From Siphonodentalium dalli (Eukaryota; Mollusca; Scaphopoda; Gadilida; Siphonodentaliidae): DNA of 64,000 bases. Below the pieces are notes generated by a model, which saw only the letters and a list, made by a program, of their open reading frames with translations, ran no database searches and had not been told where the DNA came from. Shown piece by piece: positions 1 to 41,049 of this stretch. The DNA lies in contig CP136062.1 in the NCBI GenBank assembly GCA_032622095.1, positions 223,896,578-223,960,577 of the forward strand. The letters run 5' to 3'. How positions within the stretch are numbered: the stretch's first letter is position 1; each line of letters starts with the position of its first letter. The translations under genes and the position numbers were made by a program.

Positions 1-255
1 CTAGGTAACCAAGCAATAACACTAGAACATCGACGTCCCTACCTACCACAATAACTTGTTTCAGATTGCAACCCGTGCTGGCATCAAGTGAATGAAGGAT
101 AAGTCTAGTCTATTCGCGATTAGACTCTAACCCTTCCAAGCCTGTTCCATCTACCGAACAATCTACTCTGCAATCTTCTTGGAATCCCCCTGCAACAACA
201 ACAGTAACACATTCTGTTTTCGCGTTGGTAACAAGTTCTCGAGACAAGAAATAAT

Positions 256-578
256 TTAATCGGACTTGTTGTCAGACAACAAAATGAAACTGTTCCAATT
301 GTGTGGGATGGGAACATCACGATTTGTTATTATCCTTCGTATCAATGGTACATTGCGACTTCTTTTCGATCTGGTGGCAGTCTTTATAGATTTATCCGAG
401 TATCTGTCGAACACTACATTAATCCTGACATTGCCTTCGCCTTTCTGCAACACGCACACTGAGAATACATCGGACAAATCTCCAAAATGTATTTACCGTT
501 TCCGGTTTACCTATGGCCACAACAATGGCCTGGCCGGCAATGACAATACCTGCACGGGAAGATGGTGTCATAGTTGTT
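256..578 (-). pseudogene. Broken gene fragment, left copy of a head-to-head pair
   Basis: The minus strand encodes a recognisable fragment with the words VFDRYSDKSIK, IRRIITNRDVPIP and LLSDNKSD, and ends at a stop at 256. I know this pattern (VVFDRY..SIK..TR.RR, then VPxPxNW..F..L.xNK.DL) from large families of uncharacterised invertebrate proteins often found in repeats; no function is assigned here. Compared with the right copy (674-1099) this copy has one extra T in the run at about 483-487, which shifts the frame, so only about 73 codons read through. It lies in the left arm of a ~0.8-kb palindrome and points away from the axis. It lacks the rest of the family protein on both sides, so I treat it as a relic. 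Confidence 0.5.
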
Positions 579-1073
579 AGGCAAGATAATTTCTCGATCA
601 GAGCGTCACTAAGTATTGCTTTTTTCCAGTTCGAAGTGTTTTATTTGTCTCGCATAATGCAATTGGAACAGGCATGAGTTCATATTGTAAAACAGATCGC
701 AGAGTATTACATCGTCTTGTAGTTGCCCTTCATGGCGACAGGGCCGTCAACTTGCAAACAATGACACCATCTCCCCGTGCAGGTATTATCATTGACGGTC
801 AGGCCCTTGTTGTGGCCATATGTAAACCGGAAAAGGTAAATACATTTGGAGATTTGGCAGATGTAATCTCAGTGTGCGTGTTGAAGAAGGGCGAAGGCCA
901 TGTCTGGATTGATGTAGTGTTCGACAGATACTCGGATAAATCTATAAAGATTGCCACCAGATCGAGAAGAAGTCGCAATATAACATTGATCCGAAGGATA
1001 ATAACAAATCGTGATGTTCCCATCCCACAAAATTGGAAAAGTTTTATTTTGTTGTCTGACAACAAGTCCGATT
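258..1073. repeat. Imperfect palindrome of duplicated gene fragments
   Basis: Bases about 258-578 are the reverse complement of about 754-1073 (for example GTTGTCAGACAAC at 268-280 against GTTGTCTGACAAC at 1051-1063). The arms are about 320 bp with scattered differences, and the spacer is about 175 bp. The coordinates sum to 1331-1332 throughout, so the arms are collinear with almost no indels. The two halves carry the same gene fragment, transcribed outward. Confidence 0.8.
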
Positions 1074-1099
1074 TGAAATTCGGTTTCATGGTATTGTAA
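674..1099 (+). pseudogene. Gene fragment with VVFDRY/RRIITNRDVP motifs, right copy
   Basis: This is an open frame of 141 codons starting at ATG 674. The family part begins near residue 30 and includes TFGDLADVISVCVLKKGEG, WIDVVFDRYSDKSIK, TRSRRSRN, IRRIITNRDVPIPQNWKSF and LLSDNKSDL. The order and spacing match the uncharacterised invertebrate family described for the left copy. The similarity stops just after DNKSDL, where full-length relatives continue, and the last residues (KFGFMVL) look like accidental extension. The first ~25 residues lie in the palindrome spacer and are also probably not native. It reads as a C-terminally truncated fragment, possibly transposon cargo. There is no clear promoter. 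Confidence 0.5.
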
Positions 1100-2495
1100 A
1101 AATTAATGACGTCATATATACGCCTAAACATGAAAAGCAACAATTAACGCCCCTGTTGTGGTTGCTAATATGTTTAAATTGTCTTGCACTAAATGTCATG
1201 TACCCGACAAGGATACAGGTATACAATGCAAATTGGTAATCAATATAGGACGACATTCTGTACAACCACACCGGAGATACCGAGATTATCATTTTATTAT
1301 CCGCGTTCATCGCGCAGCTTAATAATTATGACAGTCATTCAATGCAGATCATTAATTCACCGACATATTGACAAATTGATCAAGTATAGCGAATATTGAA
1401 CCAAATTGTAAAAATAATTGTACGAGATCTCTACGAAGTCGCCTCCGATGCTGATATATATACTATATATTAACCCTAATTGCTGTACTAAATAGATTAT
1501 CCCACTCAAGTATATATAAGTATACGTTGTCCACCTAGAGGGGTTTTGGGGGGGGGGGGGAGCAGATACAGAGAATGCGTGTACAGAAAGAATTATATTT
1601 ATCGGAGGGAACTACTCTTCTAATAATTATTATCTGAACTTTTTCCAGGGAACTAAGTACTCGTCAGTATGGGAGGCCCTTTTCACATATTATCACTTAT
1701 TTGGTGCTCAAGCGCAAATATCTGCTTTTAAGCGTAATTAACTTACGCTCGAGCGTAAATCATTTGCGTGTAAGCGCAAATACCTAACACGTCCTTCTTC
1801 CCTCCAATTATGAATGATTGAGTCCATCTCATAGTATATTCATTAGTTTGTAATACTATGCATGAGATAGATAGATTTTATTTGTACAATAAACATAGCA
1901 TATTACAGTTAAACTAAAGATGCAAAATTAATGATATTGTACAGGGACTGCATGGCCAATACTGACCGTCTTCCTGCAGTCCCTTAAATAAATAACAAAT
2001 TATCCACTACCTGGCGGTAATTGTCAAATAATAAGTATATATATATATAATATATATAATATAATATGATATAGTATAGAATAATATAATATCCGCAGAC
2101 CAGATTCAATTGTACATGTAGGCATCGAATGTTGACTATATAGATTGAATGTAAATAAATAAATAAGGACAGAAAGTCAGTGAACGTTAATACTAGTCAT
2201 ATTATAGTCATGGGCTATGTTCAATGGGTGTTATTATAGTAGCTGGTCACATCGAGTTCATTACGATATTTTTAAGTGATACGTGTGCAAATTGATTGAA
2301 CTTGTTATGACCAGACGGGTGAAATATCCAGAAAGAATGACATCAATATCAATAAGTATAATTATAATATTTAGTTATAGGATATAGTTATAATATTTAG
2401 TTATAACATTTAGTTCCGGGGTTATTTTGTAATGAGCAACTGTAACAGTAACTGTGTCTATACAGACTCGAAAATACAAGAAGAAAAAACATTTC
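1100..2495. other. No gene seen; low-complexity spacer
   Basis: This is AT-rich sequence with a G run at about 1546-1560 and related words (AAGCGCAAAT, AGCGTAAAT) in both orientations at 1709-1790. I see no supportable coding frame. Confidence 0.6.
2032..2095. repeat. AT microsatellite
   Basis: A run of TATATA/TAATATA words interrupted by single G residues. Simple low-complexity sequence. Confidence 0.8.
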
Positions 2496-2555
2496 CATAT
2501 ATGTGACCCGCCATATCAAATCCAGTCGTAAGTCGGGATTTTTTTTTACCCTGTG

Positions 2556-2622
2556 CCAATGCATTCTCTTATATATGCGAGTCTACCATAGGTCGCCACG
2601 TATATATAAGAGAATGCATTGG
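2556..2622. repeat. 67-bp foldback, copy 1
   Basis: CCAATGCATTCTCTTATATA pairs with TATATAAGAGAATGCATTGG across a short loop. It is a perfect or near-perfect hairpin, repeated at 18393-18459 in the right outer arm and in degenerate form near 37.7-37.84 kb. Confidence 0.8.
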
Positions 2623-2704
2623 CCTAACAATTTTTTACAATTTTAATAATTTTTTCTTTAACAATTTTATAATTTCACCCATACTAGTACTGGCCCCACC
2701 ATTG

Positions 2705-3253
2705 CACCTAGTACAAACGCTATCGCATGCCAAATGGGGTGGGATGCTGAAAAATCGCAAGCCAATTTGCGCGCGATTTAGTTTGCCGTGTCCCGCGTGA
2801 CTCAGCATCGCATGCGAATATGTTTCGATTGTAAAATTCAAAGAAATGTAACTCTAACATACCCGTTATTTAGTAAAAAATCATACCAAAAGAATGACAC
2901 CACAAAGAGACACGTTTCAAAAACACTATAGGAAAAATCACTTTTAGGGAGGCGGACGGCACTGTCTAAGACCTGTTAGGAAACACAAAAAGCAACGTCA
3001 CCCCTTTTTCAAATTGATATCGAGGCAGTCAGGTCGCGCCAGCGACCGCTGCCGCGGGGGCCTGATGGCTCATAAAAACAACTCTATATATAAGCGCCCG
3101 CGGCTACCACTTTATAGCATCAAGGGTAGACTGAGCAAATCGAGACGGGATGCTGGTCCCGCCAAACTCTCCAGACGGCATCGACATATCAAAACGCATG
3201 CGATTCTCGCCTATCGTATCCGTATTTGGACGAGATTGTAAGACCATAGCCTG
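2705..3253. mobile_element. 549-bp insertion with 7-bp target duplication
   Basis: ACCATTG occurs at 2698-2704 and again at 3254-3260. The right outer arm has a single uninterrupted copy (as CAATGGT at 18220-18226), so the right arm is an empty site and this segment is a clean insertion flanked by a 7-bp duplication. A precise deletion from the right arm between the two repeats would look the same and is the alternative. The insert has no obvious terminal inverted repeat or poly-A. It contains a good TATA box (CTATATATAAGCGCCC, about 3084-3099) and a small hairpin (GGGATGCTGGTCCC). The open frame from 3014 is not convincing as a protein. Confidence 0.55.
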
Positions 3254-3364
3254 ACCATTGACCCCCGTAGGATTTTCATGTGGAGAACTGATTATATGTG
3301 GACTTCAATCAATAGGTTATATGCTTTCAAAAAATATTGGGTAGACATCACACAAAGTCCTGCG

Positions 3365-3378
3365 GTTGCCATGGCAAC
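3365..3378. promoter_or_regulatory. X-box-like palindrome
   Basis: GTTGCCATGGCAAC is a perfect 14-bp palindrome and fits the known RFX-family X-box consensus. It is in the left outer arm, mirrored at 18102-18115. Binding is inferred only from the match. Confidence 0.45.
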
Positions 3379-3552
3379 GGCTTAAATATACATGCCAAAT
3401 ATTGAGGTTTCAACAACTGGAATGCTTGCATTTAACCACTTATCTCGCGTTGTATTTGTTATAACTGCCTGCACATATCTATATTTGCTATATAAACATA
3501 TCTAACTTATCGGGAAATGCTAGGTACAAGTTGGCTGGCCATATATATCTCC

Positions 3553-3566
3553 GTTGCTATGGTAAC
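3553..3566. promoter_or_regulatory. X-box-like motif, diverged
   Basis: GTTGCTATGGTAAC has the same spacing as the 3365 palindrome with two changes. A similar word, GTTACCATAGCAAC, is at 5806-5819. Confidence 0.35.
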
Positions 3567-3779
3567 GATCAAATATCATTGAGAATGGGCTTATAGTCAA
3601 TGTCTGCCCTATAGCCATTGCAGGAATAAACGAGTCCCCCCCCCATATGTTGAATATAACATATATTTAGAAGAGACCACAATATCACATATCAAGTAAA
3701 GGGCCAAAATGTGGGATGTGACGCCACTTATGATGTCATCGACGTCATGACATCTAAACTGGAATCTCGCCATATGCCT

Positions 3780-4140
3780 TTTAGTGGGGCGGATAGATGA
3801 CACAATCGTGCATTTTATGGTAAAAGCACCAAACTTGACACGCTTGTACTACATATCAAAATAACACATTTTTGATATCATGCCAAGCTGGAGAATGCCC
3901 ATGGTTGCCATGGCAACCGTTTTGACAACAAATCTTGTTTTTCTCTCAATCCCAACAAGTATGCATCGTTATGACTCAGTTTCTAATCGAAAAACAATGT
4001 TTTATGTACCTATTTGTACTGAAAAGGGATCAAGCTATATATTAATTGACTCATGTGTCCGTTATAGTTGGGTAGAATCAAAATGGCGGATAAAATGGCC
4101 GCCATTTGTTTGAAAGTCCCTATTATTGGCTGCGTGTATC
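3780..4140 (+). repeat. Interspersed repeat, unsplit copy
   Basis: The order of words here (GACACAATCGTGC, GGTAAAAGCACC, CATATCA, CATGGCAACCGTTTTG, GGGTAGAATCAAAATG) recurs in the sequence split by the palindromic element: the first part at 6205-6280 and the rest at 14773-15045. It is a diverged, non-coding repeat family in the same orientation. It serves as the comparison that shows the uninterrupted target of the palindromic insertion. Confidence 0.6.
3904..3917. promoter_or_regulatory. X-box-like palindrome
   Basis: A second exact GTTGCCATGGCAAC, inside the interspersed repeat. The matching place in the split copy (14841-14854) reads GTTGGCATGGCAAC. Confidence 0.45.
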
Positions 4141-5020
4141 GACATTTTATTGAGATGTGTGTACATTTTTTATTATAAAATGTACTTTGACAAGAAAATA
4201 TAAACTGATAATTCACTCTGTATATATATAACAATTCTAAGGATTGCAAAACAAAAATTATAGGCCAGAAGATGATGGAATAGCGTAAATATAATGCAAA
4301 AAAAAAAAATGGGTTGTTTGTTTTGATTACTATAATTGATGGTTACAATGACACGAGAAGCATTTCTATGATATAAAACTATCTGAAAGTTGATTATGAC
4401 AATCTTCCGCGTTAACTTTATATCATATCATTTTAGCGAGTGTGTGTGGACAATATTGGTCTGGTACAAAACTGCTTGGCAACCGTTGCTATGGAGCTAC
4501 CCGATTACCTTTGTGCAGCTATAATAACACTTACTCACAATTTGACAAGCTGCTAATCATTGTGGTATTATATGCGGAACATACAAGTACCGCAAAGTTT
4601 ACATATTTATGATATTAACTATAATTCTTCAAAATAGAGGTAAGCAAATGTTTTTATTACGAGCGTAGGTGCGAATTATGTGCGACAAGGTATGATATGA
4701 ATTGTTTACATTTGCAATAGCAATATCGTGAGATATATGTAATTGCCTATATAGTTGTTATACAACTTAAGTGTGCTAAAAACTTTGATTCTAATATATT
4801 ATGAGAATCAATCATGCAATAACTCGTGGCGTTTCGCCGCTCCAATATAGGATAAAACAGTCGAAGACACTCATTCTGCGATAAGTGGCATTCAATAATG
4901 TGCAATGGATAGTCAAGTATGAATAATTCATGACAAATCGCCAGTCAATTCTGCTAGTTGTGTGAACGCACCCTAAAGAGTTGGAAAAAATTGCATACAT
5001 GTCACTTTTGGCAACACTTG
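4141..5020. other. No gene seen
   Basis: AT-rich unique-looking sequence with an A run at about 4298-4307 and a partial X-box-like word at 4495. No supportable coding frame on either strand. Confidence 0.5.
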
Positions 5021-5176
5021 CAGTAATGCCTTAAGTAATCGACATCCTAACCACAGCAGAATTATGGGTATCTTCCAGGATTTAGTCGGAAATATGGATA
5101 TTTATTTCCGACTAAATCCTGAAAATTACCCATAATTCTGATGTGGTTAAGGGGTCGATTACTTAGGGCATTACTG
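5021..5176. mobile_element. 156-bp foldback MITE
   Basis: The two halves are inverted copies: CAGTAATGCC at 5021 pairs with GGCATTACTG ending at 5176, and the match continues inward through TAACCACAGCAGAATTATGG and TTTAGTCGGAAATA to a short AT loop. The same inner sequence forms the axis of the large palindrome (10300-10762) and the ends of the gene-capturing elements at 7511-7755 and 13298-13542, so this is a small copy of one foldback family. I cannot define a target duplication confidently. Confidence 0.75.
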
Positions 5177-5298
5177 TATTTGCAATAGAGCATAGAACAG
5201 TACAGCGTAATGATGCCCTCGAGAATTTGCAATTGTTTTTGCATCCATTCTTGCAACCACATCGCAATAGTTCTTGGCAACCTTTGGATGCTCCAGGA

Positions 5299-5610
5299 TT
5301 GATTGATTGATTGATTGGGGTTTATTGTCGCTTTAGCAACTAAGGCCATATCACGACATTGCCAGTTTTAGTGGTGGAGGAAATCCGCACACTTGCGACT
5401 AATCTAACAGTGATTTCAATGGCTGATAAACTCGTCAACCATGTGCGGCAAACCACCGGCCATCGGCGAGTAACTGGTAACTCCACCAGATAACGATTTC
5501 GAGCTACAAAGTCCACGACGGAAACATGAGGATTTGAACCCTTATCGCCAGCGCTGGATGGCGAAACGGCTTGGAGTTGTACCCCTAACCGATTGAGCCA
5601 CCGAGGCTCC
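5299..5610 (-). mobile_element. Full-length tRNA-derived SINE
   Basis: Read on the minus strand it begins GGAGCCTCGGTGGCTCAATC. It has an A-box-like TGGCTCAATCGG (5589-5600) and a B box GGGTTCAAATCC (5530-5541), then a body ending in TTAGTTGCTAAAGCGAC and a (CAAT)n tail. It is flanked by a perfect 13-bp target-site duplication, GGATGCTCCAGGA (5286-5298 and 5611-5623), which fixes both ends. From memory, the body and tail resemble SINEs of bivalves. Transcription would be by RNA polymerase III and mobilisation by a LINE with a similar tail; a LINE with a CAATCAATCA end is present at 48682-49930. The sharp duplication suggests a fairly recent insertion. A tail fragment of the same family is at 50341-50405. 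Confidence 0.9.
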
Positions 5611-6204
5611 GGATGCTCCAGGAAGATCGGTCCATGCCACACTCCAACTTTCTTCATAGTAGCCTGTCATTTGTATACAAAAAATGGGTTTCGTAAACAA
5701 AATTGGGGATTTTGTGCAATGTAGTTAATCGTAAATCCCATATACTGGAGACATTGGAAACCATTGTTGATAAGCTTCTTATCGATTAGCAGCCTCGAAA
5801 ATGGCGTTACCATAGCAACAATATGTGGTTTCTGAGACTTCTGGAAAATGATCATATGTGAATTATTTTAGTGACAACGGTGGACTTGTTGGTCGATATG
5901 GTTATATAATAATACTTGCATGCATACATTCTCCAAGACGAACCTCCAGCACTGATCTCAAGAGTCAAGGTGACTATGAAAGGTCAAGTGTTTTATCACT
6001 TCATGTGCTATTATTTGTCTTTATGAGGAACCTTTCTCAATTTATTGCATCATATTGATATTTGTTACATTCTGGAGATCATAGCCTTTATTTTGAGATA
6101 CATATCTTATCCATAGGCTGATTGTTACTTGTGTGAGAGATTTTACGAAATATGTGACCAGGCCAATTGGCGACCCTTAAAATTAGAAATTGCTCTTCCC
6201 GATA

Positions 6205-6280
6205 TAATAGACAATGGCCACACCATTAGTTGGGTGGAAAGAGGACACAATCGTCAATGTTATGATAAAAGCATCGCAGT
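6205..6280 (+). repeat. Split interspersed repeat, left part
   Basis: GGACACAATCG and GATAAAAGCATCGCAGT match the start of the repeat at 3780-4140. The last six bases, CGCAGT (6275-6280), are duplicated at 14773-14778 on the far side of the palindromic element. Confidence 0.65.
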
Positions 6281-6788
6281 AGAAGAATAGATGTCTCGTT
6301 AGAGTCACATCTAAAAATAGAATCTTTGGGTCTAAAATTGTTTGTACTAAAATATTCCCAAAATATCAAAACCCAAAAAAAAAATTCAAAACTTCAAAAA
6401 TTTATTTTTTCCAAAAAATTTCAAAAACCCTAAAATTAATTTTTTCCACAAAAAATTTCCAAACTTCCAAATTATCAAAAAAAGAAAAAATTTCAAAACC
6501 CTCAAAATTATTTCTCTAAAAAAAAGTTTAAATAAAAAATTTATAACGAGTTTTTCGGTTTCTGATAATCTCGATATTAAAAAATATCGAATGTTAAATT
6601 ATTTGCGCGTAATATCTTTCGTTATTTTTTTGTTCAAATATTTTTCATGAATTTATTAATCGATGTTTAGAAATAGCTTTATTGGACATTGTGACCAACG
6701 GTATGAATGCATACATTCCAGTGTTTAACGGACGCAGTTCATATAATTGTCATACCTGAAAATAGACACCATTACTTTTTACATAAAT

Positions 6789-6802
6789 AATAAAGAGCGT
6801 TT
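6789..6802 (+). promoter_or_regulatory. Recurrent 14-mer AATAAAGAGCGTTT
   Basis: About 510 bp inside the left end of the palindromic element, preceded by ACATAAAT. The exact word also occurs at 14251-14264 (minus), 54850-54863 (plus) and 59447-59460 (minus). Its role is unknown; it contains AATAAA and often follows a TATA-like run. Confidence 0.4.
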
Positions 6803-7510
6803 ATTCTTTACTTATCTCTATATGAAGTTATTGAGTATATGACAGGCGTGTATTTTCGTCAATTATTGGAAGTATTGAAATGTACTATGTTGAATCCCTA
6901 ACGGTCGAAAATTGTAATGTGAAATTAGAACCCTCCAGAATGAATTGTCATATTGAATGAATGATGATTTAATCTCAGCCATTTTTACATGGAACATGAG
7001 CGATGTACACTCAATCACACACGCCACATTGGTGTTAACAATGTGTCTTTCACACCTTTGCTTTACCAAATGAATTCTATTATTTCCCCGGTCACAGCTA
7101 TATGGTATTCAGAAAACATATCGATTTAATGTCTGAACAAAACGAGTTAGTATCAATTAAGGTTGATAAACTGTGTCATTCACACCATAATTAGTTATCC
7201 ATAAAACATGCATACATATTACGTCAGGTCGTGAGACACTCAATTATACAAATTGCTTTGATCACATTGTTATAACAACATTACGTAATAACCCCTTATC
7301 ACTCCAGTCACACTTACGATCATTTTGTATGCCGAAAACTCCAGGTAGCACCGATGATGTAACATTATATCACTGCTATTGTACCAATGATAAATTCAGA
7401 CATGTTCCATGTTTAGAAAAATAGATAATCTGCAGGTGTTCACTTGACAAGACATTTTGTACACTCAATCACAGGCCAACGTGATAATACCAGCCCACAC
7501 CCAACCCCCA

Positions 7511-7569
7511 AGTTACCTATAATTCTGCTGTGGTTAAGCCACAACAACAACAACAACAACAACAACACC

Positions 7570-7600
<31 letters not shown>

Positions 7601-7755
7601 GTCACCAAGCGACATAACATCCTGTTTTGATGATCCAATGGCCAATGTCCATGAAGATTTTATTTCCGATGCAAGTCATATTTCAGACTAACTCCTGAAA
7701 AGTTACCTATAATTCTGCTGTGGTTAAGCAGTCCATTATTTAGGGCATACCTGTA
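7511..7755 (+). mobile_element. Rearranged foldback element with captured ATPase gene piece
   Basis: Two direct copies of the foldback-family word ACCTATAATTCTGCTGTGG (7515 and 7705 regions) enclose about 126 bp (7540-7665). These match the plus-strand ATPase gene: a (CAA)n tract, then CACCAAGCGACATAACATCC and on through the codons for SCFDDPMANVHEDFIF (gene residues roughly 50-98). The piece runs on the plus strand, opposite to the intact gene copy in this arm. The right side ends like the family terminus (GGGCATACCTG, about 7753). It looks like transduplication of host-element coding sequence by a MITE, mirrored in the right arm at 13298-13542. Confidence 0.7.
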
Positions 7756-7920
7756 TGTAGGCCTACCAGTGGATGAATAGTCTGCCGGAGAAGTACTGTG
7801 TAGACAGGTCTTGTCGGTAAGAAAGTCAGACGAGTAGTGAAGGCTCGGCTATTAAAACATAGTAATGCGATAGCGAACATCAAACGAGTCTGCGCACGCA
7901 TATCTGTCAAAGGATACAAG

Positions 7921-8006
7921 GGCAGTCATTGGTCAATTTATCCCCGGTGTCAGCTCAGTACAATGGCAGTCATTGGTCAATTTATCCCCGGTGTCAGCTC
8001 AGTACA
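7921..8006. repeat. 44-bp tandem duplication
   Basis: GGCAGTCATTGGTCAATTTA begins at 7921 and again at 7965, and the two copies are nearly identical. It is mirrored in the right arm at about 13047-13132. Non-coding, outside the ATPase gene. Confidence 0.85.
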
Positions 8007-8344
8007 CAATCGGCACGAAGCCGCAGGTCATAATTACTCTTACGAATGAAGAGCGTTGAACATATACGAAATTATTACACGAATGAACTGAAATTTATAT
8101 TTCACATCTTACCAACAACAGATACAGACATAGTCATAGTGTTATATTATCTTACATGTACCCATGCTATGACATACTTAAAGGGGGGATAATGCACACA
8201 CGGTGTGTGGAATGTTAAAGTGACACGAGGTAAGGGACGTTATGTAATATTGGTGTGTGAATATTAAAGGAGCATTCTCGCTATACAAACCCCCCTCCCC
8301 ACTTATAGATATATAACGAAGACGAGAATAACATGTTGATGAAG

Positions 8345-8350
8345 TTTATT
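8345..8350 (-). terminator. Poly(A) signal of left ATPase gene
   Basis: AATAAA on the minus strand, 5 bases past the stop codon of the left gene. It is mirrored at 12703-12708. Confidence 0.6.
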
Positions 8351-8355
8351 GAAAT

Positions 8356-9895
8356 TTAATCATTGTCTGAATCTTCGACCGTTAGATTTACTTCTAAGAG
8401 TTTCTTGAATTTTCTCATCGCTTCATCTGCAGCCCATTCATTATTATATCCGCGTTTGGTCAGTTTGACCATTTTCTTCATGATCGTGTTATGTATGGGT
8501 GATGTTTTCAATCGATACTGGTATTCTATTAATCGTCTATAACTTTTGAGAAACAGAACAAACTCTGTGTCGATGGTATCCTCTTTTCCCGACATGCTCT
8601 CATCTCCCGAAATGCTCTCTTCTTCTTTCACATCAGTGGTGACGCGTTTCATCATACTTTTGAATGTGTCCATCTCGTTGACACATCGCGCAGCTTTCTT
8701 AAGACCGAATACCGTTCTACTACCGACGACATTACCATCTTTTGAATCTGATAGCGTTCCTCGTTCATCTTCATCTGTATCTTCTCCGAAGAGAGTTGTT
8801 TTTGTCTCGGACATAGCTCCGTGTTCATCCGGGTCCTCAGTTAATTTTCGTTTTAACTTATTTTCTTGACACCAGTTTTTTACGTGTCTCTGAACATCAT
8901 AATGATCTGCGAACAAAAGCCCGCATTCATTACAAGGGTACGACATGTCTTCTCGAATGTCTATACGTTTCTTCTTATTAATTTCATCGAGCTCACCAGG
9001 TGGCCGTATGTCGTTAGTATAGTCATTATGTTGACCCTGGGGCACAATATAATTATATGTTATGCCCTTCTGTTGACCAGGGAGTTCTCTGTCATCGTAT
9101 TTTATCGCATTCTGTTGACCCTGGGTCTCAGTGTCTTTTGTATGTTTTTTCATCCCATTCTGTTCATCTGGGTGTTCTCTGTCTTTTTGGAGATTATATT
9201 TCATGCCATTCCATTCACCCCTATGTTGGTTCGTGTCCTCTTTTAGTACATTCTGTCGCAGACGTAATGTGTCCGGTGTTGCGGCTTTTAAATCCACAAG
9301 TAGGTAACCGTACGGTTCACTCGTCGCTTCCGAAAACTCTCGAACCATACGCTGAGGACATTCAGGATACATCTGTCTTGATAATGTTGAAATTAATCCC
9401 TTGTCGATTGGGTTATTGAACAATACCAAATATTGACAATTTCGTCGTTGCGTTGGATCTTTGTTGTAGTAGAAATTCTGGTTCAAACTTATCAAAGATA
9501 AGTTCAAATGGTGACTTCCTTCGGAATGCAAATCATTAACTCTCTGGTCTTTTGATGAAGTTTGCATCAAGTCATCGAGTATAACTAGATTTTTATACCG
9601 GGGGTTGATAAGCGAATCCAAGTTTGCTGGTATTCCTCGTATAAAGTTGACCTGAGGGGTGACGGTATACTTTAATTCGTCATATAGGGGCTGCCAATAT
9701 TTATAAAACCATATTATTCTGTCAGGTGCGGGTGATATTTTTGAGGCAGACTTTTGTAGTAAGGTTTTCACGAAGTATGTCTTACCACAAGATGTCGGTC
9801 CACTTACACATGCCGTGAATGGATGCTTGAAAATAAAATCTTCATGGACATTGGCCATTGGATCATCAAAGCAGGATGTTATGTCGCTTGGTGGC

Positions 9896-9947
<52 letters not shown>

Positions 9948-10122
9948 GGGGGTGATGATACTGTTGTTGTTGTTGTTGTTGTTGTTGTTGTGGCTGATGA
10001 TACTGTTGTTGTTGCTGTTGTTGTTGTTGTTGTTCTGAAGGCGTGTGTTTAACTTTGATATGACGCTTCAAACTATCTTGCCAAGCATAGACACTTAAGC
10101 ACTCTTCACATTGATACTTCAT
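8356..10122 (-). CDS. Zinc finger-polyQ-packaging-type ATPase, left copy (588 aa)
   Basis: This intact, intronless frame begins at ATG 10122. Residues 1-26 form a C2H2 zinc finger (C5-x2-C8-x12-H21-x4-H26). Residues 31-76 are three polyglutamine tracts separated by YHQP and YHHP. From about 95 there is a P-loop NTPase: Walker A GPTSCGKT (108-115), RIIWFYKYWQPLYDEL (136-151), Walker B LVILDDL (179-185), then EGSHHLNLSLISLNQNF with a QN sensor-like pair and LFNNPIDKGLISTLSRQMYP. This order matches the A32/FtsK-HerA-like DNA-packaging ATPases of Polintons and related viruses; the exact subfamily is my inference. Residues 300-385 are hydrophilic degenerate repeats (QxNGMKY, PGQQ). A second finger-like motif (C397, C400, H413, C418) follows, and the C-terminus (FVLFLKSYRRLIEYQY onward) is probably helical. 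The likely role is nucleoprotein packaging or DNA handling for the element. A TATA box lies ~135 bp upstream and a poly(A) signal just after the stop. Confidence 0.85.
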
Positions 10123-10256
10123 TTAACTAGTTCAGGCTGTCGTTCACAACGTCTCTTAGTGTTGTTTGTACTGGATACAAATTTATCACATTAGCTACAA
10201 TACAACCTACCTATCCAAATGTCAATGCAATTATGAGTGATTTCAATATGAACACT

Positions 10257-10266
10257 CTATTATATA
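10257..10266 (-). promoter_or_regulatory. TATA box of left ATPase gene
   Basis: TATATAATAG on the minus strand, about 135 bp upstream of the ATG at 10122, exactly mirrored at 10796-10805. Confidence 0.45.
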
Positions 10267-10299
10267 GATATGTGTAACCTGGTGACTGACATGATGATA

Positions 10300-10762
10300 C
10301 AGTTATGCACTAAATAAAGGACTGCTTAACCACAGCAGAATTATAGGTAACTTTTCAGGAGTTAGTCGGAAATATGGCTTGTTGCCATTCATCGGAAAGC
10401 TCTCGCCGCCGGCGGATGTTGATGGCGGCGGCATTGCGGTGGTGTTGTTGTTGTTGTTGTTGTTGTTGTGACGCCGGCGGCGGCGGCATTGCGGTATTTT
10501 ACTGCGGCGGCGGTGCCGCCGCCGCCGCCGGGGTCCGCCACCGGCGGACCCCCGCAGTAAAATACTGCAATGCCGCCGCCGCCGCCGGCGTCACAACAAC
10601 AACAACAACAACAACAACACCACCGCAATGCCGCCGCCATCAACATCCGCCGGCGGCGAGAGCTTTCCGATGAATGGCAACAAGCCATATTTCCGACTAA
10701 CTCCTGAAAAGTTACCTATAATTCTGCTGTGGTTAAGCAGTCCTTTATTTAGTGCATAACTG
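10300..10762. mobile_element. Foldback element at the palindrome axis
   Basis: It starts CAGTTATGCACTAAATAAAG and ends with its reverse complement. Inward are the family words TAACCACAGCAGAATTATAG and AGTTAGTCGGAAATATGGC, then a (GTT)n/(CAA)n pair, then GC-rich GCC/GGC repeats meeting at about 10531. Coordinates of paired bases sum to 21062, the same as the surrounding arms, so this element shares its axis with the 8.5-kb palindrome. The family is the same as the foldback at 5021-5176. It could extrude as a stable cruciform. Its GC-rich core encodes nothing credible. Confidence 0.8.
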
Positions 10763-10795
10763 TATCATCATGTCAGTCACCAGGTTACACATATC

Positions 10796-10805
10796 TATAT
10801 AATAG
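10796..10805 (+). promoter_or_regulatory. TATA box of right ATPase gene
   Basis: TATATAATAG lies about 135 bp upstream of the ATG at 10940, in the interval between the axis foldback and the gene. Confidence 0.45.
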
Positions 10806-10939
10806 AGTGTTCATATTGAAATCACTCATAATTGCATTGACATTTGGATAGGTAGGTTGTATTGTAGCTAATGTGATAAATTTGTATCCAGTACAAACAA
10901 CACTAAGAGACGTTGTGAACGACAGCCTGAACTAGTTAA

Positions 10940-11108
10940 ATGAAGTATCAATGTGAAGAGTGCTTAAGTGTCTATGCTTGGCAAGATAGTTTGAAGCGTC
11001 ATATCAAAGTTAAACACACGCCTTCAGAACAACAACAACAACAGCAACAACAACAGTATCATCAGCCACAACAACAACAACAACAACAACAACAGTATCA
11101 TCACCCCC

Positions 11109-11157
<49 letters not shown>

Positions 11158-12697
11158 GCCACCAAGCGACATAACATCCTGCTTTGATGATCCAATGGCC
11201 AATGTCCATGAAGATTTTATTTTCAAGCATCCATTCACGGCATGTGTAAGTGGACCGACATCTTGTGGTAAGACATACTTCGTGAAAACCTTACTACAAA
11301 AGTCTGCCTCAAAAATATCACCCGCACCTGACAGAATAATATGGTTTTATAAATATTGGCAGCCCCTATATGACGAATTAAAGTATACCGTCACCCCTCA
11401 GGTCAACTTTATACGAGGAATACCAGCAAACTTGGATTCGCTTATCAACCCCCGGTATAAAAATCTAGTTATACTCGATGACTTGATGCAAACTTCATCA
11501 AAAGACCAGAGAGTTAATGATTTGCATTCCGAAGGAAGTCACCATTTGAACTTATCTTTGATAAGTTTGAACCAGAATTTCTACTACAACAAAGATCCAA
11601 CGCAACGACGAAATTGTCAATATTTGGTATTGTTCAATAACCCAATCGACAAGGGATTAATTTCAACATTATCAAGACAGATGTATCCTGAATGTCCTCA
11701 GCGTATGGTTCGAGAGTTTTCGGAAGCGACGAGTGAACCGTACGGTTACCTACTTGTGGATTTAAAAGCCGCAACACCGGACACATTACGTCTGCGACAG
11801 AATGTACTAAAAGAGGACACGAACCAACATAGGGGTGAATGGAATGGCATGAAATATAATCTCCAAAAAGACAGAGAACACCCAGATGAACAGAATGGGA
11901 TGAAAAAACATACAAAAGACACTGAGACCCAGGGTCAACAGAATGCGATGAAATACGATGACAGAGAACTCCCTGGTCAACAGAAGGGCATAACATATAA
12001 TTATATTGTGCCCCAGGGTCAACATAATGACTATACTAACGACATACGGCCACCTGGTGAGCTCGATGAAATTAATAAGAAGAAACGTATAGACATTCGA
12101 GAAGACATGTCGTACCCTTGTAATGAATGCGGGCTTTTGTTCGCAGATCATTATGATGTTCAGAGACACGTAAAAAACTGGTGTCAAGAAAATAAGTTAA
12201 AACGAAAATTAACTGAGGACCCGGATGAACACGGAGCTATGTCCGAGACAAAAACAACTCTCTTCGGAGAAGATACAGATGAAGATGAACGAGGAACGCT
12301 ATCAGATTCAAAAGATGGTAATGTCGTCGGTAGTAGAACGGTATTCGGTCTCAAGAAAGCTGCGCGATGTGTCAACGAGATGGACACATTCAAAAGTATG
12401 ATGAAACGCGTCACCACTGATGTGAAAGAAGAAGAGAGCATTTCGGGAGATGAGAGCATGTCGGGAAAAGAGGATACCATCGACACAGAGTTTGTTCTGT
12501 TTCTCAAAAGTTATAGACGATTAATAGAATACCAGTATCGATTGAAAACATCACCCATACATAACACGATCATGAAGAAAATGGTCAAACTGACCAAACG
12601 CGGATATAATAATGAATGGGCTGCAGATGAAGCGATGAGAAAATTCAAGAAACTCTTAGAAGTAAATCTAACGGTCGAAGATTCAGACAATGATTAA
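10940..12697 (+). CDS. Zinc finger-polyQ-packaging-type ATPase, right copy (585 aa)
   Basis: Mirror copy of the 8356-10122 gene. It has the same ATG context, the N-terminal C2H2 finger, Walker A GPTSCGKT, Walker B LVILDDL, the second CxxC finger-like motif and the same C-terminus. It is 3 residues shorter because each of the three polyglutamine tracts has one CAA codon fewer (9, 9 and 17 instead of 10, 10 and 18). One other visible change is Met for Ile in the QQNA(I/M)KYDD repeat. Both copies are open from start to stop, so either both are under selection or duplication is very recent. The two genes diverge from a shared ~800-bp central region containing the axis foldback and two TATA boxes. 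The polymerase or integrase genes that would normally accompany this ATPase are absent. Confidence 0.85.
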
Positions 12698-12702
12698 ATT
12701 TC

Positions 12703-12708
12703 AATAAA
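12703..12708 (+). terminator. Poly(A) signal of right ATPase gene
   Basis: AATAAA begins 5 bases after the TAA stop (12695-12697). Confidence 0.6.
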
Positions 12709-13297
12709 CTTCATCAACATGTTATTCTCGTCTTCGTTATATATCTATAAGTGGGGAGGGGGGTTTGTATAGCGAGAATGCTCCTTTAATATTCACACAC
12801 CAATATTACATAACGTCCCTTACCTCGTGTCACTTTAACATTCCACACACCGTGTGTGCATTATCCCCCCTTTAAGTATGTCATAGCATGGGTACATGTA
12901 AGATAATATAACACTATGACTATGTCTGTATCTGTTGTTGGTAAGATGTGAAATATAAATTTCAGTTCATTCGTGTAATAATTTCGTATATGTTCAACGC
13001 TCTTCATTCGTAAGAGTAATTATGACCTGCGGCTTCGTGCCGATTGTGTACTGAGCTGACACCGGGGATAAATTGACCAATGACTGCCATTGTACTGAGC
13101 TGACACCGGGGATAAATTGACCAATGACTGCCCTTGTATCCTTTGACAGATATGCGTGCGCAGACTCGTTTGATGTTCGCTATCGCATTACTATGTTTTA
13201 ATAGCCGAGCCTTCACTACTCGTCTGACTTTCTTACCGACAAGACCTGTCTACACAGTACTTCTCCGGCAGACTATTCATCCACTGGTAGGCCTACA

Positions 13298-13452
13298 TAC
13301 AGGTATGCCCTAAATAATGGACTGCTTAACCACAGCAGAATTATAGGTAACTTTTCAGGAGTTAGTCTGAAATATGACTTGCATCGGAAATAAAATCTTC
13401 ATGGACATTGGCCATTGGATCATCAAAACAGGATGTTATGTCGCTTGGTGAC

Positions 13453-13483
<31 letters not shown>

Positions 13484-13542
13484 GGTGTTGTTGTTGTTGT
13501 TGTTGTTGTTGTGGCTTAACCACAGCAGAATTATAGGTAACT
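13298..13542 (-). mobile_element. Mirror copy of the gene-capturing foldback
   Basis: Reverse complement of 7511-7755, including the (GTT)n tract and the captured ATPase piece, here on the minus strand, opposite to the intact gene of this arm. Its presence in both arms dates the capture to before the palindrome formed (or shows conversion between arms). Confidence 0.7.
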
Positions 13543-14250
13543 TGGGGGTTGGGTGTGGGCTGGTATTATCACGTTGGCCTGTGATTGAGTGTACAAAATG
13601 TCTTGTCAAGTGAACACCTGCAGATTATCTATTTTTCTAAACATGGAACATGTCTGAATTTATCATTGGTACAATAGCAGTGATATAATGTTACATCATC
13701 GGTGCTACCTGGAGTTTTCGGCATACAAAATGATCGTAAGTGTGACTGGAGTGATAAGGGGTTATTACGTAATGTTGTTATAACAATGTGATCAAAGCAA
13801 TTTGTATAATTGAGTGTCTCACGACCTGACGTAATATGTATGCATGTTTTATGGATAACTAATTATGGTGTGAATGACACAGTTTATCAACCTTAATTGA
13901 TACTAACTCGTTTTGTTCAGACATTAAATCGATATGTTTTCTGAATACCATATAGCTGTGACCGGGAAAATAATAGAATTCATTTGGTAAAGCAAAGGTG
14001 TGAAAGACACATTGTTAACACCAATGTGGCGTGTGTGATTGAGTGTACATCGCTCATGTTCCATGTAAAAATGGCTGAGATTAAATCATCATTCATTCAA
14101 TATGACAATTCATTCTGGAGGGTTCTAATTTCACATTACAATTTTCGACCGTTAGGGATTCAACATAGTACATTTCAATACTTCCAATAATTGACGAAAA
14201 TACACGCCTGTCATATACTCAATAACTTCATATAGAGATAAGTAAAGAAT

Positions 14251-14264
14251 AAACGCTCTTTATT
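14251..14264 (-). promoter_or_regulatory. Recurrent 14-mer, right arm
   Basis: Exact AATAAAGAGCGTTT on the minus strand, the palindromic partner of 6789-6802. Confidence 0.4.
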
Positions 14265-14772
14265 ATTTATGTAAAAAGTAATGGTGTCTATTTTCAGGTA
14301 TGACAATTATATGAACTGCGTCCGTTAAACACTGGAATGTATGCATTCATACCGTTGGTCACAATGTCCAATAAAGCTATTTCTAAACATCGATTAATAA
14401 ATTCATGAAAAATATTTGAACAAAAAAATAACGAAAGATATTACGCGCAAATAATTTAACATTCGATATTTTTTAATATCGAGATTATCAGAAACCGAAA
14501 AACTCGTTATAAATTTTTCATTTAAACTTTTTTTTAGAGAAATAATTTTGAGGGTTTTGAAATTTTTTCTTTTTTTGATAATTTGGAAGTTTGGAAATTT
14601 TTTGTGGAAAAAATTAATTTTAGGGTTTTTGAAATTTTTTGGAAAAAATAAATTTTTGAAGTTTTGAAATGTTTTTTTGGGTTTTGATATTTTGGGAATA
14701 TTTTAGTACAAACAATTTTAGACCCAAAGATTCTATTTTTAGATGTGACTCTAACGAGACATCTATTCTTCT

Positions 14773-15045
14773 CGCAGTTGGCACACATGTATATCACACC
14801 ATTATATATCATTTTGGATATGATCCGAATAACGTACACCGTTGGCATGGCAACCGTTTTGGTGAATCACATGTTGTTTGTCATACTATATCCATTATGT
14901 ATTGCTAATGACCAGAAACCTCATAAAAACTGTTCGATGTGCATCTATTTTGATTGGGTCATATACTTGTAAGAACATATAAATTTTATATATGGGTAGA
15001 TTCAAAATGCTATCCCCAACAGTATGGTAATAGGACGCATGTACG
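14773..15045 (+). repeat. Split interspersed repeat, right part
   Basis: It begins with the second CGCAGT and continues TTGGCACACATGTATATCAC, CATGGCAACCGTTTTGG and GGGTAGATTCAAAATGC. This aligns in order with 3825-4100 of the unsplit copy. Joined conceptually to 6205-6280 it restores the repeat with one CGCAGT. Confidence 0.6.
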
Positions 15046-18518: not shown

Positions 18519-18947
18519 TATCAGCATCCCTGTCCTTGTTTTATTAAAGGGACACATCCTTTAAGTTCATAACCAAGTTAAAGTTGATTACTGTCTGCTT
18601 GAGTGGACCACACTGCATATCAATATTTGTTTTCATTAATTGGGCTGGAATATTTGTAACTGCTTTATTCTTCATTATGATATATGGGGGGTATGATGCT
18701 ATATTATGCAAATAAAAATATAACTCAACATTATGATACAAATGAAGCCTCCTCCCATAGAGCCAGGACAATAAGCTATATATTTGTGATTGGAGTTTTG
18801 CGTAAAATTATTAATTATTCTAGCAGCTCTTGGTACCGAAAACGACAAAAAAATAAAATAATGTTTTCAACCTCTCAAATGTATTACAATCCATTGTTTT
18901 TGTTGTTTCTACATAATTGCTCAGAATCTATATACAACTATATACAA
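18519..18947. other. No gene seen
   Basis: AT-rich spacer between the outer palindrome and the satellite, with no recognised feature. Confidence 0.5.
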
Positions 18948-21900
18948 ATGAGGCAACAATACACTGCCGTTGTATATCAGTATTATATAATGAGGCAACA
19001 GCACACTGACGTTGTTTTTCAGTATTATATAATGAGGCAACAATACACTGACGTTGTATATCAGTATTATAATGAGGCAACAATACACTGACGTTGTATA
19101 TCAGTATTATATAATGAGGCAACAATACACTGACGTTGTATATCAGTATTATATAATGCGGCAACAATACACTGACGTTGTATATCAGTATTATATAATG
19201 AGGCAACAATACACTGACGTTGTATATCAGTATTATATAATGAGGCAACAATACACTGACGTTGTGTATCAGTATTATATAATGAGGCAACAATACACTG
19301 ACATTGTATATCATTATTATATAATGAGGCAACACTAAACTGACGTTGTATATCATTATTATATAATGAGGCAACAATACACTGACATTGTATATCATTA
19401 TTATATAATGAGGCAACAATACACTGACGTTGTATATCCGTATCATATAATGAGGTAACAATACACTGACGTTGTATATCAGTATTATATAATGAGGCAA
19501 CAATACACTGACATTGTGTATCAGTATTATATAATGAGGCAACAATACACTGACGTTGTATATCAGTATTATATAATGAGGCAACAATACACTGACATTG
19601 TATATCAGTATTATATAATGAGGCAACAATACACTGACGTTGTATATCAGTATTATATAATGAGGCAACAATACACTGACGTTGTATATCAGTATTATAT
19701 AATGAGGCAACAATACACTGACGTTGTATATCAGTATTATATAATGAGGCAACAATACACTGACATTGTATATCAGTATTATATAATGAGGCAACAATAC
19801 ATTGACATTGTATATACTTATTATATGATGAGGCAACATTACACTGCCGTTGTATATACTTATTATATAATGAGGCAACAATACACTGACGTATATCAGT
19901 ATTATATAATGAGGCAACAATACACTGACGTATATCAGTATTATATAATGAGGCAACAATACACTGACGTTGTATATCATTATTATATAATGAGGCAACA
20001 ATACACTGACGTTGTATATCATTATTATATAATGAGACAACAATACACTGACGTTGTATATCATTATTATATAATGAGGCAACAATACACTGACGTTGTA
20101 TATCATTATTATATAATGAGGCAACTATACTGACGTTGTATATCAGTATTATATAATGAGGCAACAATACACTGACGTTGTATATCATTATTATATAATG
20201 AGGCAACAATACACTGACGTTGTATGTCATTATTATATAATGAGGCATCAATACAGTAACGTTGTATATCATTATTATATAATGAGGCAACAATACACTG
20301 ACGCTGTATATCATTATTATATAATGAGGCAACAATAAACTGACGTTGTATATCATTATTATATAATGAGGCAACAATACACTGACGTTGTATATGAGTA
20401 TTATATAATTAGTTGTATATGAGTATTATATAATGAGTTGTATATCAGTATTATATAATGAGGCAACAATAAACTGACGTTGAATATCATTATTATATAA
20501 TGAGGCAACAATACACTGACGTTGTATATGAGTATAATATAATGAGTTGTATATCAGTATTATATAATGAGTTGTATATCAGTATTATATAATGAGTTGT
20601 ATATCAGTATTATATAATGAGGCAACAATACACTGACGTTGTATATCAGTATTATATAATGAGGAAACAATACACTGACGTTGTATATCATTATTATATA
20701 ATGAGGCAACAATACACTGACGTTGTACATCATTATTATATAATGAGGCAACAATACACTGACGTGGTATATCATTATTATATAATGAGGCAACAATACA
20801 CTGACGTTGTATATCAGTATTATATAATGAGGCAACAATACACTGACGTTGTATATCAGTATTGTATAATGAGTTGTATATCAGTATTATATAATGAGTT
20901 CTATATCAGTATTATATAATGAGGCAACAATACACTGACGTTGTATATCATTATATAATAAGGCAACAATACACTGACATTGTATATACTTATTATATAA
21001 TGAGGCAACATTACACTGACGTTGTATATACTTATTATATAATGAGGCAACAATGCACTGACATTGTATATACTTATTCTATAATGAGGCAACAATACAC
21101 TGATGTTGTATATCATTATTATATAATGAGGCAACAATACACTGACATTGTATATACTTATTATATAATGAGGCAACATTACACTGACGTTGTATATACT
21201 TATTATATAATGAGGCAACAATACACTGACGTTGTATATCAGTATTATATAATGAGGCAACAATACACTGACGCTGTATATCATTATTATATAATGAGGC
21301 AACAATACACTGACGTTGTATATCAGTATTATATACTGAGGCAACAATACACTGACGTATATCATTATTATATAATGAGGCAACAATACACTGACGTTGT
21401 ATGTCATTATTATATAATGAGGCATCAATACACTGACGTTGTATATCATTCTTATATAATGAGGCAACAATACACTGACGTTGTATATCATTATTGTATA
21501 ATGAGGCAACAATACACTGACGTTGTATATCATTATTATATAATGAGGCAACAATACACTGACGTTGTATATCATTATTATATGAGGCAACAATACACTG
21601 ACGTTGTATATCATTATTATATAATGAGGCAACAATACACTGACGTTGTATATGAGTATTATATAATGAGTTGTATATCAGTATTATATAATGAGTTGTA
21701 TATCAGTATTATATAATGAGGCAACAATACACTGACGTTGTATATCATTATATAATGAGGCAACAATACACTGACGTGGTATATCATTATTATATAATGA
21801 GGCAACAATACACTGACGTTGTATATCATTATTATATAATGAGGCAACAATACACTGACGTTGTATATCATTATTATATAATGAGGCAACAATACACTGA

Positions 21901-24900
21901 CGTTGTATATTAGTATTATTTAATGAGGCAACAATACACTGACGCTGTATATCAGTATTATATAATGAGGCAACAATAATCTGACGTTGTATATCAGTAT
22001 TATATAATGAGGCAACAATACACTGACGTTGTATATCAGTATTATATAATGAGGCAACAATACACTGACGTTGTATATCAGTATTATATAATGAGGCAAC
22101 AATACACTGACGTTGTATATCAGTATTATATAATGCGGCAACAATACACTGACGTTGTATATCAGTATTATATAATGAGGCAACAATACACTGACGTTGT
22201 ATATCAGTATTATATAATGAGGCAACAATACACTGACGTTGTGTATCAGTATTATATAATGAGGCAACAATACACTGACATTGTATATCATTATTATATA
22301 ATGAGGCAACACTAAACTGACGTTGTATATCATTATTATATAATGAGGCAACAATACACTGACATTGTATATCATTATTATATAATGAGGAAACAATACA
22401 CTGACGTTGTATATCCGTATCATATAATGAGGTAACAATACACTGACGTTGTATATCAGTATTATATAATGAGGCAACAATACACTGACATTGTGTATCA
22501 GTATTATATAATGAGGCAACAATACACTGACGTTGTATATCAGTATTATATAATGAGGCAACAATACACTGACATTGTATATCAGTATTATATAATGAGG
22601 CAACAATACACTGACGTTGTATATCAGTATTATATAATGAGGCAACAATACACTGACGTTGTATATCAGTATTATATAATGAGGCAACAATACACTGACG
22701 TTGTATATCAGTATTATATAATGAGGCAACAATACACTGACATTGTATATCAGTATTATATAATGAGGCAACAATACATTGACATTGTATATACTTATTA
22801 TATGATGAGGCAACATTACACTGCCGTTGTATATACTTATTATATAATGAGGCAACAATACACTGACGTATATCAGTATTATATAATGAGGCAACAATAC
22901 ACTGACGTATATCAGTATTATATAATGAGGCAACAATACACTGACGTTGTATATCATTATTATATAATGAGGCAACAATACACTGACGTTGTATATCATT
23001 ATTATATAATGAGACAACAATACACTGACGTATATCAGTATTATATAATGAGGCAACAATACACTGACGTTGTATATCATTATTATATAATGAGGCAACT
23101 ATACTGACGTTGTATATCAGTATTATATAATGAGGCAACAATACACTGACGTTGTATATCATTATTATATAATGAGGCAACAATACACTGACGTTGTATG
23201 TCATTTTTATATAATGAGGCATCAATACACTGACGTTGTATATCATTATTATATAATGAGGCAACAATACACTGACGCTGTATATCATTATTATATAATG
23301 AGGCAACAATACACTGACGTTGTATATGAGTATTATATAATTAGTTGTATATAAGTATTATATAATGAGTTGTATATCAGTATTATATAATGAGGCAACA
23401 ATAAACTGACGTTGTATATCATTATTATATAATGAGGCAACAATACACTGACGTTGTATATGAGTATTATATCAGTATTATATAATGAGTTGTATATCAG
23501 TATTATATAATGAGGCAACAATACACTGACGTTGTATATCAGTATTATATAATGAGGCAACAATACACTGACGTTGTATATCATTATTATATAATGAGGC
23601 AACAATACACTGACGTTGTACATCATTATTATATAATGAGGCAACAATACACTGACGTGGTATATCAGTATTATATACTGAGGCAACAATACACTGACGT
23701 ATATCATTATTATATAATGAGGCAACAATACACTGACGTTGTATGTCATTATTATATAATGAGGCATCAATACACTGACGTTGTATATCATTATTATATA
23801 ATGAGGCAACAATACACTGACGTTGTATATCATTATTGTATAATGAGGCAACAATACACTGACGTTGTATATCATTATTATATAATGAGGCAACAATACA
23901 CTGACGTTGTATATCATTATTATATGAGGCAACAATACACTGACGTTGTATATCATTATTATATAATGAGGCAACAATACACTGACGTTGTATATGAGTA
24001 TTATATAATGAGTTGTATATCAGTATTATATAATGAGTTGTATATCAGTATTATATAATGAGGCAACAATACACTGACGTTGTATATCATTATATAATGA
24101 GGCAACAATACACTGACGTGGTATATCATTATTATATAATGAGGCAACAATACACTGACGTTGTATATCATTATTATATAATGAGGCAACAATACACTGA
24201 CGTTGTATATCATTATTATATAATGAGGCAACAATACACTGACGTTGTATATTAGTATTATTTAATGAGGCAACAATACACTGACGCTGTATATCAGTAT
24301 TATATAATGAGGCAACAATAATCTGACGTTGTATATCAGTATTATATAATGAGGCAACAATACACTGACGTTGTATATCAGTATTATATAATGAGGCAAC
24401 AATACACTGACGTTGTATATCAGTATTATATAATGAGGCAACAATACACTGACGTTGTATATCAGTATTATATAATGCGGCAACAATACACTGACGTTGT
24501 ATATCAGTATTATATAATGAGGCAACAATACACTGACGTTGTATATCAGTATTATATAATGAGGCAACAATACACTGACGTTGTGTATCAGTATTATATA
24601 ATGAGGCAACAATACACTGACATTGTATATCATTATTATATAATGAGGCAACACTAAACTGACGTTGTATATCATTATTATATAATGAGGCAACAATACA
24701 CTGACATTGTATATCATTATTATATAATGAGGAAACAATACACTGACGTTGTATATCCGTATCATATAATGAGGTAACAATACACTGACGTTGTATATCA
24801 GTATTATATAATGAGGCAACAATACACTGACATTGTGTATCAGTATTATATAATGAGGCAACAATACACTGACGTTGTATATCAGTATTATATAATGAGG

Positions 24901-39357: not shown

Positions 39358-39425
39358 ATTTCTTCAGATAAAGTCAACAGTTTAAAAAAAAATTAAAGTT
39401 ATAAATTTAGTTAAAATTTCAGATT

Positions 39426-41045: not shown

Positions 41046-41049
41046 TTTC

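Follow-up and report, generated by a model that had tools for sequence, protein, structure and literature searches.

The window analysed here is a stretch of 64,000 nucleotides from the scaphopod mollusc Siphonodentalium dalli (contig CP136062.1, forward-strand positions 223,896,578 to 223,960,577), in which positions 6281-14772 are occupied by an 8.5-kb insertion that reads as a palindrome from end to end. The original prediction, made from the letters alone, held that the whole insertion is an inverted duplication with proper mobile-element ends. Both points were borne out, with exact coordinates: the two arms are identical in 4222 of 4254 aligned columns, and the termini, AGAAGAATAG...CTATTCTTCT, are bracketed by a 6-bp target-site duplication (TSD), CGCAGT, at 6275-6280 and 14773-14778. 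Compared with its own complement, the element gives a BLAST match spanning 1-8492 at 99.3%. The 32 unlike columns comprise 6 scattered substitutions, 12 gaps of trinucleotide-repeat length and 14 columns near the axis, which sit within the final 39 bases of the arm (10493-10531); outside the repeats and the axis, the arms are thus separated by 6 substitutions. The symmetry ends at the element termini, the left flank being alike in only 31 of 100 columns. The terminal motif, AGAAGA, consists of a 3-nt unit present two times. The features are listed below, where ORF stands for open reading frame.

6275..6280, no strand: left target-site duplication CGCAGT (sequence; same 6 bp at 14773-14778)
6281..10531, plus strand: left arm of the palindrome (arm alignment, 4222/4254 columns identical)
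6281..7511, plus strand: terminal repeat common with full-length Polintons (first 1161 or 1231 arm bases)
8356..10122, minus strand: zinc-finger packaging-type ATPase ORF, 588 aa (ORF list and motifs)
10495..10564, no strand: axis, predicted 70-nt T-shaped tip with two GC-rich hairpins within the stem TATTTTACTGC / GCAGTAAAATA (predicted folding)
10532..14772, minus strand: right arm of the palindrome (self-alignment)
10940..12697, plus strand: second ATPase ORF copy, 585 aa (Pfam run on this copy)
13542..14772, minus strand: terminal repeat common with full-length Polintons, opposite end (sequence comparison)
14773..14778, no strand: right target-site duplication CGCAGT (sequence)

The arms also carry inverted pieces of their own inner half, at 7548-7665 and 7672-7756 and mirrored in the right arm. 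These pieces, one of them a CAG-rich part of the ATPase and the other 85 bases long, resemble scars of earlier template switches.

The two ATPase ORFs, of which there are two because of the symmetry, are the sole ORFs longer than 130 aa within the element; at that threshold no PolB, integrase or capsid-sized ORF was found in the palindrome. The claim that its only genes are two copies of a packaging-type ATPase is therefore correct, and the 585-aa product matches Pox_A32 above the Pfam cut-off (1.2e-5, 25.4 bits, cut-off 22.8). The protein is laid out as an N-terminal C2H2 motif, a polyglutamine stretch, a Walker A motif (GPTSCGKT), the motif ILDDLM and a second C2H2 motif, the C2H2 matches of the 585-aa copy falling just under the Pfam cut-offs.

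To place this insertion, the genome (2.23 Gb, 9 contigs) was searched for further insertions with the same ends. Thirteen more complete palindromes were fetched, so that, with that of the window, 14 copies of 8.3-9.1 kb were examined. All 14 are palindromic over their full length and lie at separate sites, each with a 6-bp duplication of its own. Such duplications also flank the five full Polintons described below (5/5), a palindrome built from a PolB half, and the interrupted copy L033/L034, and in 20 of the 21 two-ended elements the duplication is exact. The exception is L013, where it is offset by 3 nt: the duplication is preceded by one additional terminal TCT unit. Damaged or interrupted relatives are L021, of which one half is kept, and L022 and L033/L034, which contain insertions. 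The insertion in L033/L034 (C2:120933225-120951225) is about 9.6 kb long, lies in one arm, and holds a 1468-aa ORF that extends beyond L034. Several structural subtypes were recognised; they have the ends and the ATPase core in common, whereas the inner arm and both terminal regions of the protein vary among them. The window element is a member of a multicopy family and not a lone odd insertion.

The abundance of the palindromic arrangement was gauged with short sequence patterns. A 37-base Walker-A pattern gave 385 forward and 388 reverse matches (773 in all; control 0+0). The first 100 of these form 43 divergent pairs (86 matches, median spacing 1507 bp) and leave 14 with no partner among the matches listed, and none of them has a neighbour within 6 kb in the other order. 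A second ATPase pattern gave 431+442 = 873 matches, the first 100 of which define 65 loci: at 34 of them the matches form a divergent pair, at 1 a pair in the other order, and 30 are single-strand loci. When both lists are combined for contig C1 and contig C2 to 120.9 Mb, the matches listed amount to 66 loci, namely 38 divergent, 1 other-order and 27 single-strand. The match lists rank exact matches first, and a partner with a mismatch does not appear in them. The only reverse-order pair among the matches listed, at C1:147790825 and 147793853, consists of ATPase matches that face each other. A PolB pattern (105+103 matches, control 0+0) yielded, in its first 100, 2 inverted and 2 same-strand close couples. 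An integrase pattern (86+89 matches) yielded one divergent and one same-strand couple in its first 100, among which there was no convergent couple. Since PolB and integrase matches are rarely paired among the first 100 listed, pairing is specific to the ATPase form. The divergent integrase couple lies at C3:191339871 and 191349128, 9.3 kb apart; the same-strand couple, at C8:54445012 and 54462618 and 17.6 kb apart, possibly represents tandem full Polintons.

The search for autonomous relatives recovered five 16.3-kb elements that have the ends of the palindromes, 6-bp duplications, and genes for PolB, integrase and an ATPase. Not all frames are intact: the element on C9 has its PolB split into two pieces, and that on C6 has a broken integrase frame. 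Proteins from L026, L027 and L028 were submitted to Pfam, which returned DNA_pol_B_2 for the L026 protein (4.2e-52), rve for the L027 integrase (1.8e-14, with a chromodomain alongside), and PC4 (4.1e-15). A Peptidase_C5-like protein of L027 (6e-4) and the Pox_A32 match of the 221-aa ATPase lie under the cut-off, and a 420-aa capsid candidate has no Pfam match. A protease ORF was found in 3 of the 5 elements, and none is listed in those on C1 and C5, where the expected site is the border of the fetched pieces. Among the matches listed on C1 and C2, 37 for PolB and 26 for integrase form 25 PolB-integrase couples closer than 20 kb, all on opposite strands. Full Polintons and palindromes have 1161 or 1231 terminal bases in common, and in one tree, read for topology only, the terminal repeats of the two kinds of element are interleaved, which suggests that palindromes and full Polintons exchange ends. 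Judged by gene content, the palindromes are non-autonomous: they carry the ends of an autonomous-type element of the same genome and lack the transposition genes. With same-ended relatives that encode PolB and integrase, they look like partners mobilised in trans. The proposal of a non-autonomous, symmetric derivative that integrates like a Polinton is thus supported by the missing transposition genes, the 6-bp TSDs and the same-ended relatives.

The palindrome ATPase and the 221-aa ATPase of a full Polinton are 31% identical across 206 aa; on this alignment, the former is a zinc-finger paralogue, distinct from the ATPase of the same-ended full Polintons. The original reading, of a packaging-type ATPase, is refined on this point. 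That the palindrome arm is a truncated end of an examined full Polinton was considered and rejected, as the ATPase there is another gene in another orientation. No PolB or integrase match is listed within 25 kb of any of the 66 ATPase loci of C1 and C2, which suggests, as far as the matches listed reach, that the zinc-finger ATPase is confined to palindromes. A full-length ATPase ORF is present in both arms at 12 of the 17 ATPase-bearing loci inspected. L012 and L013 each have one truncation of the ORF, present in both arms of the same copy, which suggests that the spread of these copies was not stopped by a broken ATPase; the product may act in trans. Selection was assessed on the protein core: in the more distant pairs synonymous changes exceed nonsynonymous ones per site (window element versus L020: 5/144 versus 2/534 sites, small counts). 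The value of pN/pS pooled over all pairs (0.62) was set aside because the exchanged C-terminus distorts it. In L016-L020, L022, L023 and L033 the core is near-invariant, but two unlike versions exist of the N-terminal zinc finger and of the C-terminus, which indicates module exchange. No relatives beyond this genome were found in viral_contigs (by protein, terminal 18-mer or ATPase alignment) or in phages.

How such a palindrome may arise is best seen in a second example, a 15.6-kb element at C3:286440216-286455842 (L031, L032) with the TSD GATCTA. This element is the PolB half of a full Polinton, present twice: its arms are 99.6% identical (7742 columns) and collinear with positions 151-7877 of the full Polinton L024. 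L024 contains a GC-rich tract, with up to 91% GC per 100 bases. At the axis of the PolB palindrome the parent sequence crosses this tract and continues for about 200 bases more, to about position 8187 of L024, where it turns at the hexamer GCCCCG and then reads as the tract's complement. L024 has four occurrences of GCCCCG in this tract, and a junction at this hexamer is as expected from priming by a folded-back strand. The PolB palindrome is a fold-back duplication of one parent end. For the ATPase family of the window, a snap-back origin is inferred. The original statement that the terminal repeats have swallowed the element holds as regards full symmetry and is more aptly described as one end duplicated by fold-back, as seen in the PolB palindrome and supposed for the window element. 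Another inverted PolB pair, at C1:95383281, has a spacing similar to that of this palindrome (3092 versus 3218 bp) and is known from pattern matches.

The axis of the ATPase palindromes has a structure of its own. Folding of 10440-10610 with DNA parameters, and of the tip with RNA parameters, predicts a T in the window element: a stem, TATTTTACTGC, that bears one GGCGGCGG-type and one GGGGTCCGCC-type hairpin. With RNA parameters, a T is predicted at the innermost 63-72 nt in 11 of the 14 copies; DNA parameters give it for the window element and for L018 (an off-centre slice in the latter case). Three copies hold the T in one orientation and 8 in the opposite one, and one length variant of the tip has 26 forward and 28 reverse occurrences in the genome (control 0), near-equal numbers such as chance orientation would give. 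Ten of 20 such tips (C1-C3, and C4 to 187.24 Mb) lie inside an ATPase pair among the matches listed. The motif of the second hairpin is present in 10 of 37 loci, every one a palindrome or half-palindrome, and in no full Polinton locus. Adeno-associated virus (AAV) also has a T-shaped end, which the tip resembles in shape alone.

The arms of each copy are closely matched. Across the 14 copies there are 32 within-copy arm substitutions, 27 of them private; this count leaves out 142 within-copy differences that fall in microsatellites or the centre, or belong to a tract found in one arm of L015. Over the same region, 401 sites vary between copies, with both arms agreeing in each counted copy. At 334 of these the minor state is found in at least 2 copies, which suggests that much of the arm matching predates insertion. 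The terminal repeats differ on average by 0.059% within elements (15 pairs: the 14 palindromes and the PolB palindrome) versus 2.25% between them (888 pairs, 5 of which each compare the two ends of a single full Polinton); the left arm of L015, which its tract makes an outlier, was retained. The idea that full Polintons always have matched ends was rejected: their two ends show 1/808, 0/808, 28/812, 14/807 and 34/809 differences, and are hence matched in 2 of 5 only. Some differences have been left unrepaired in one arm, namely the tract of L015 and the insertion in a single arm of L033/L034.

Taken together, these data make it probable that the window element belongs to a large family of Polinton-type elements, recently active, palindromic and non-autonomous, which arose by fold-back, use PolB and integrase in trans, and keep their arms matched through a hairpin. 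The pathway would be as follows. A replicating or displaced Polinton strand would snap back near a GC-rich tract and be copied back to its own end; this would yield first a hairpin and, after it, a linear duplex whose two sides carry the same end and gene. This step is read from the structure of the PolB palindrome and, for the ATPase palindrome, I infer it. The PolB and integrase of the same-ended 16.3-kb Polintons would then replicate and integrate the palindrome in trans, the helper PolB starting from both ends. In later cycles the displaced palindrome strand would fold into a full-length hairpin in which mismatches are corrected, so that the arms stay matched, a step proposed because the arms are homogeneous. 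The terminal unit, being repeated, is consistent with the jumping-back start that PMC8097293 describes for Mavericks, and the extra TCT unit of L013 could be what such an initiation leaves.

Several observations weigh against this scheme. The second ATPase pattern shows a lower paired share than the Walker-A pattern, and some of the single-strand loci may be half elements like L021. The loci examined include no non-palindromic parent of the ATPase arm, and for the family of the window element a fold-back origin is therefore not seen. Mobilisation in trans is presumed from shared ends and missing genes, and the palindromes are known here from genome assembly alone. Three of the 14 copies (L010, L017, L023) have no T tip, and off-centre slices of L010, L016 and L019 folded with DNA parameters gave other structures. 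The matched ends of 2 of the 5 full Polintons indicate that matching is not peculiar to palindromes, and chromosomal gene conversion could likewise yield homogeneous arms. This last process, which would act between the arms in the chromosome and make replication irrelevant after first formation, is a possible explanation, if clearly a less probable one. Adjacent 4-kb inverted repeats are good substrates for gene conversion, the large palindromes of sex chromosomes keep their arm identity in this way, and the two arms of a copy share their substitutions and truncations. By contrast, minor states shared by at least 2 copies at 334 of the 401 sites suggest that much of the matching took place before insertion, and the one-arm differences of L015 and L033/L034 have persisted.

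An ordinary internal-deletion derivative whose terminal inverted repeats (TIRs) grew inward stepwise seems improbable. Full Polintons already have TIRs of 1.16-1.23 kb, and in 2 of 5 the ends are almost identical; however, the PolB palindrome contains the whole of one end twice, turns once and has a loop of parent sequence, and no TIR length between 1.2 kb and the whole element was met among the few loci fetched. Long palindromes are hard to sequence, and joins of fold-back type, introduced by the assembler or through hairpin reads, had to be considered; such an artefact is very unlikely and was rejected, given the sharp ends with unlike flanks, the separate 6-bp duplications in 21/21 two-ended elements (one offset by 3 nt), the private differences between arms, and the fact that, among the matches listed, only 2 loci have paired PolB and no locus has a convergent integrase pair. 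Symmetry alone would speak for two opposite solo insertions, or for an inverted duplication of host DNA after insertion, but a single TSD brackets the whole element and the symmetry ends at its termini; the TSDs contradict this reading, which can virtually be dismissed. The preferred scheme could be extended, if only tentatively, to make the palindromes true Polinton satellites, that is, hyperparasites with self-priming or hairpin DNA, a conserved T-shaped tip, borrowed PolB and integrase, and a putative zinc-finger packaging motor of their own that would steer half-length genomes into helper capsids.

The family can be compared with several known systems. In the vertebrate set of Mavericks/Polintons, a repeated terminal motif permits a jumping-back start (PMC8097293). 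As in those elements, the window family has a 6-bp TSD, a repeated terminal motif, and the terminal repeats of elements that encode PolB, integrase, a protease-like protein and an ATPase. Unlike those described there, the palindromes are 8.5 kb long, completely symmetric and devoid of PolB, integrase and a recognisable capsid gene, and carry a zinc-finger ATPase twice. The snapback genomes of AAV are self-complementary subgenomes derived from either parent end, symmetric or looped, whose replication depends on a helper. The palindromes are likewise self-complementary; unlike these subgenomes of parvovirus particles (PMC8235507), they are many genomic insertions with TSDs. Adenovirus replicates by protein-primed strand displacement, and the single strands that this sets free anneal at their ends into panhandles (PMC9863843). 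Unlike the symmetric adenovirus derivatives of virus stocks, the palindromes are a self-spreading genomic family. Symmetric adenovirus recombinants keep two functional ends. Phage satellites of the P4/SaPI type combine a smaller genome and use of helper machinery with a packaging gene of their own. They are prokaryotic and not palindromic, unlike the present elements, which they resemble in the packaging gene and the putative use of a helper.

No palindromic Polinton was found among the titles and abstract openings listed in the literature searches, most subscription papers and the repeat databases being outside this scope, so that novelty is unproven; nor was one found in passages of PMC8097293, PMC10120064, PMC1864894 and PMC6431247. 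Virus replication is known to yield snap-back genomes as by-products, and here the same architecture is that of an abundant transposable-element family: palindromes half the length of full Polintons, spread at many sites, with near-identical halves in each examined copy. The PolB palindrome, a second example in the same genome, displays its fold-back junction against the parent. A family of this kind, together with a parent-matched junction, makes the strand-displacement replication of Polintons testable from genome sequence. The palindromes also offer a natural case of arms matched repeatedly, and suggest that Polintons may host parasites of their own.

Elsewhere in the window, a tandem array of 16.5 kb lies near the element, at 18947-35443, with a 42-bp unit in about 390 copies, a higher period of 126 and a GC content of about 27-30%. 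Further tandem arrays occupy 38431-39358, 41028-42712 and 58341-59050; their units measure 464, about 116-154, and 122 bp, respectively.

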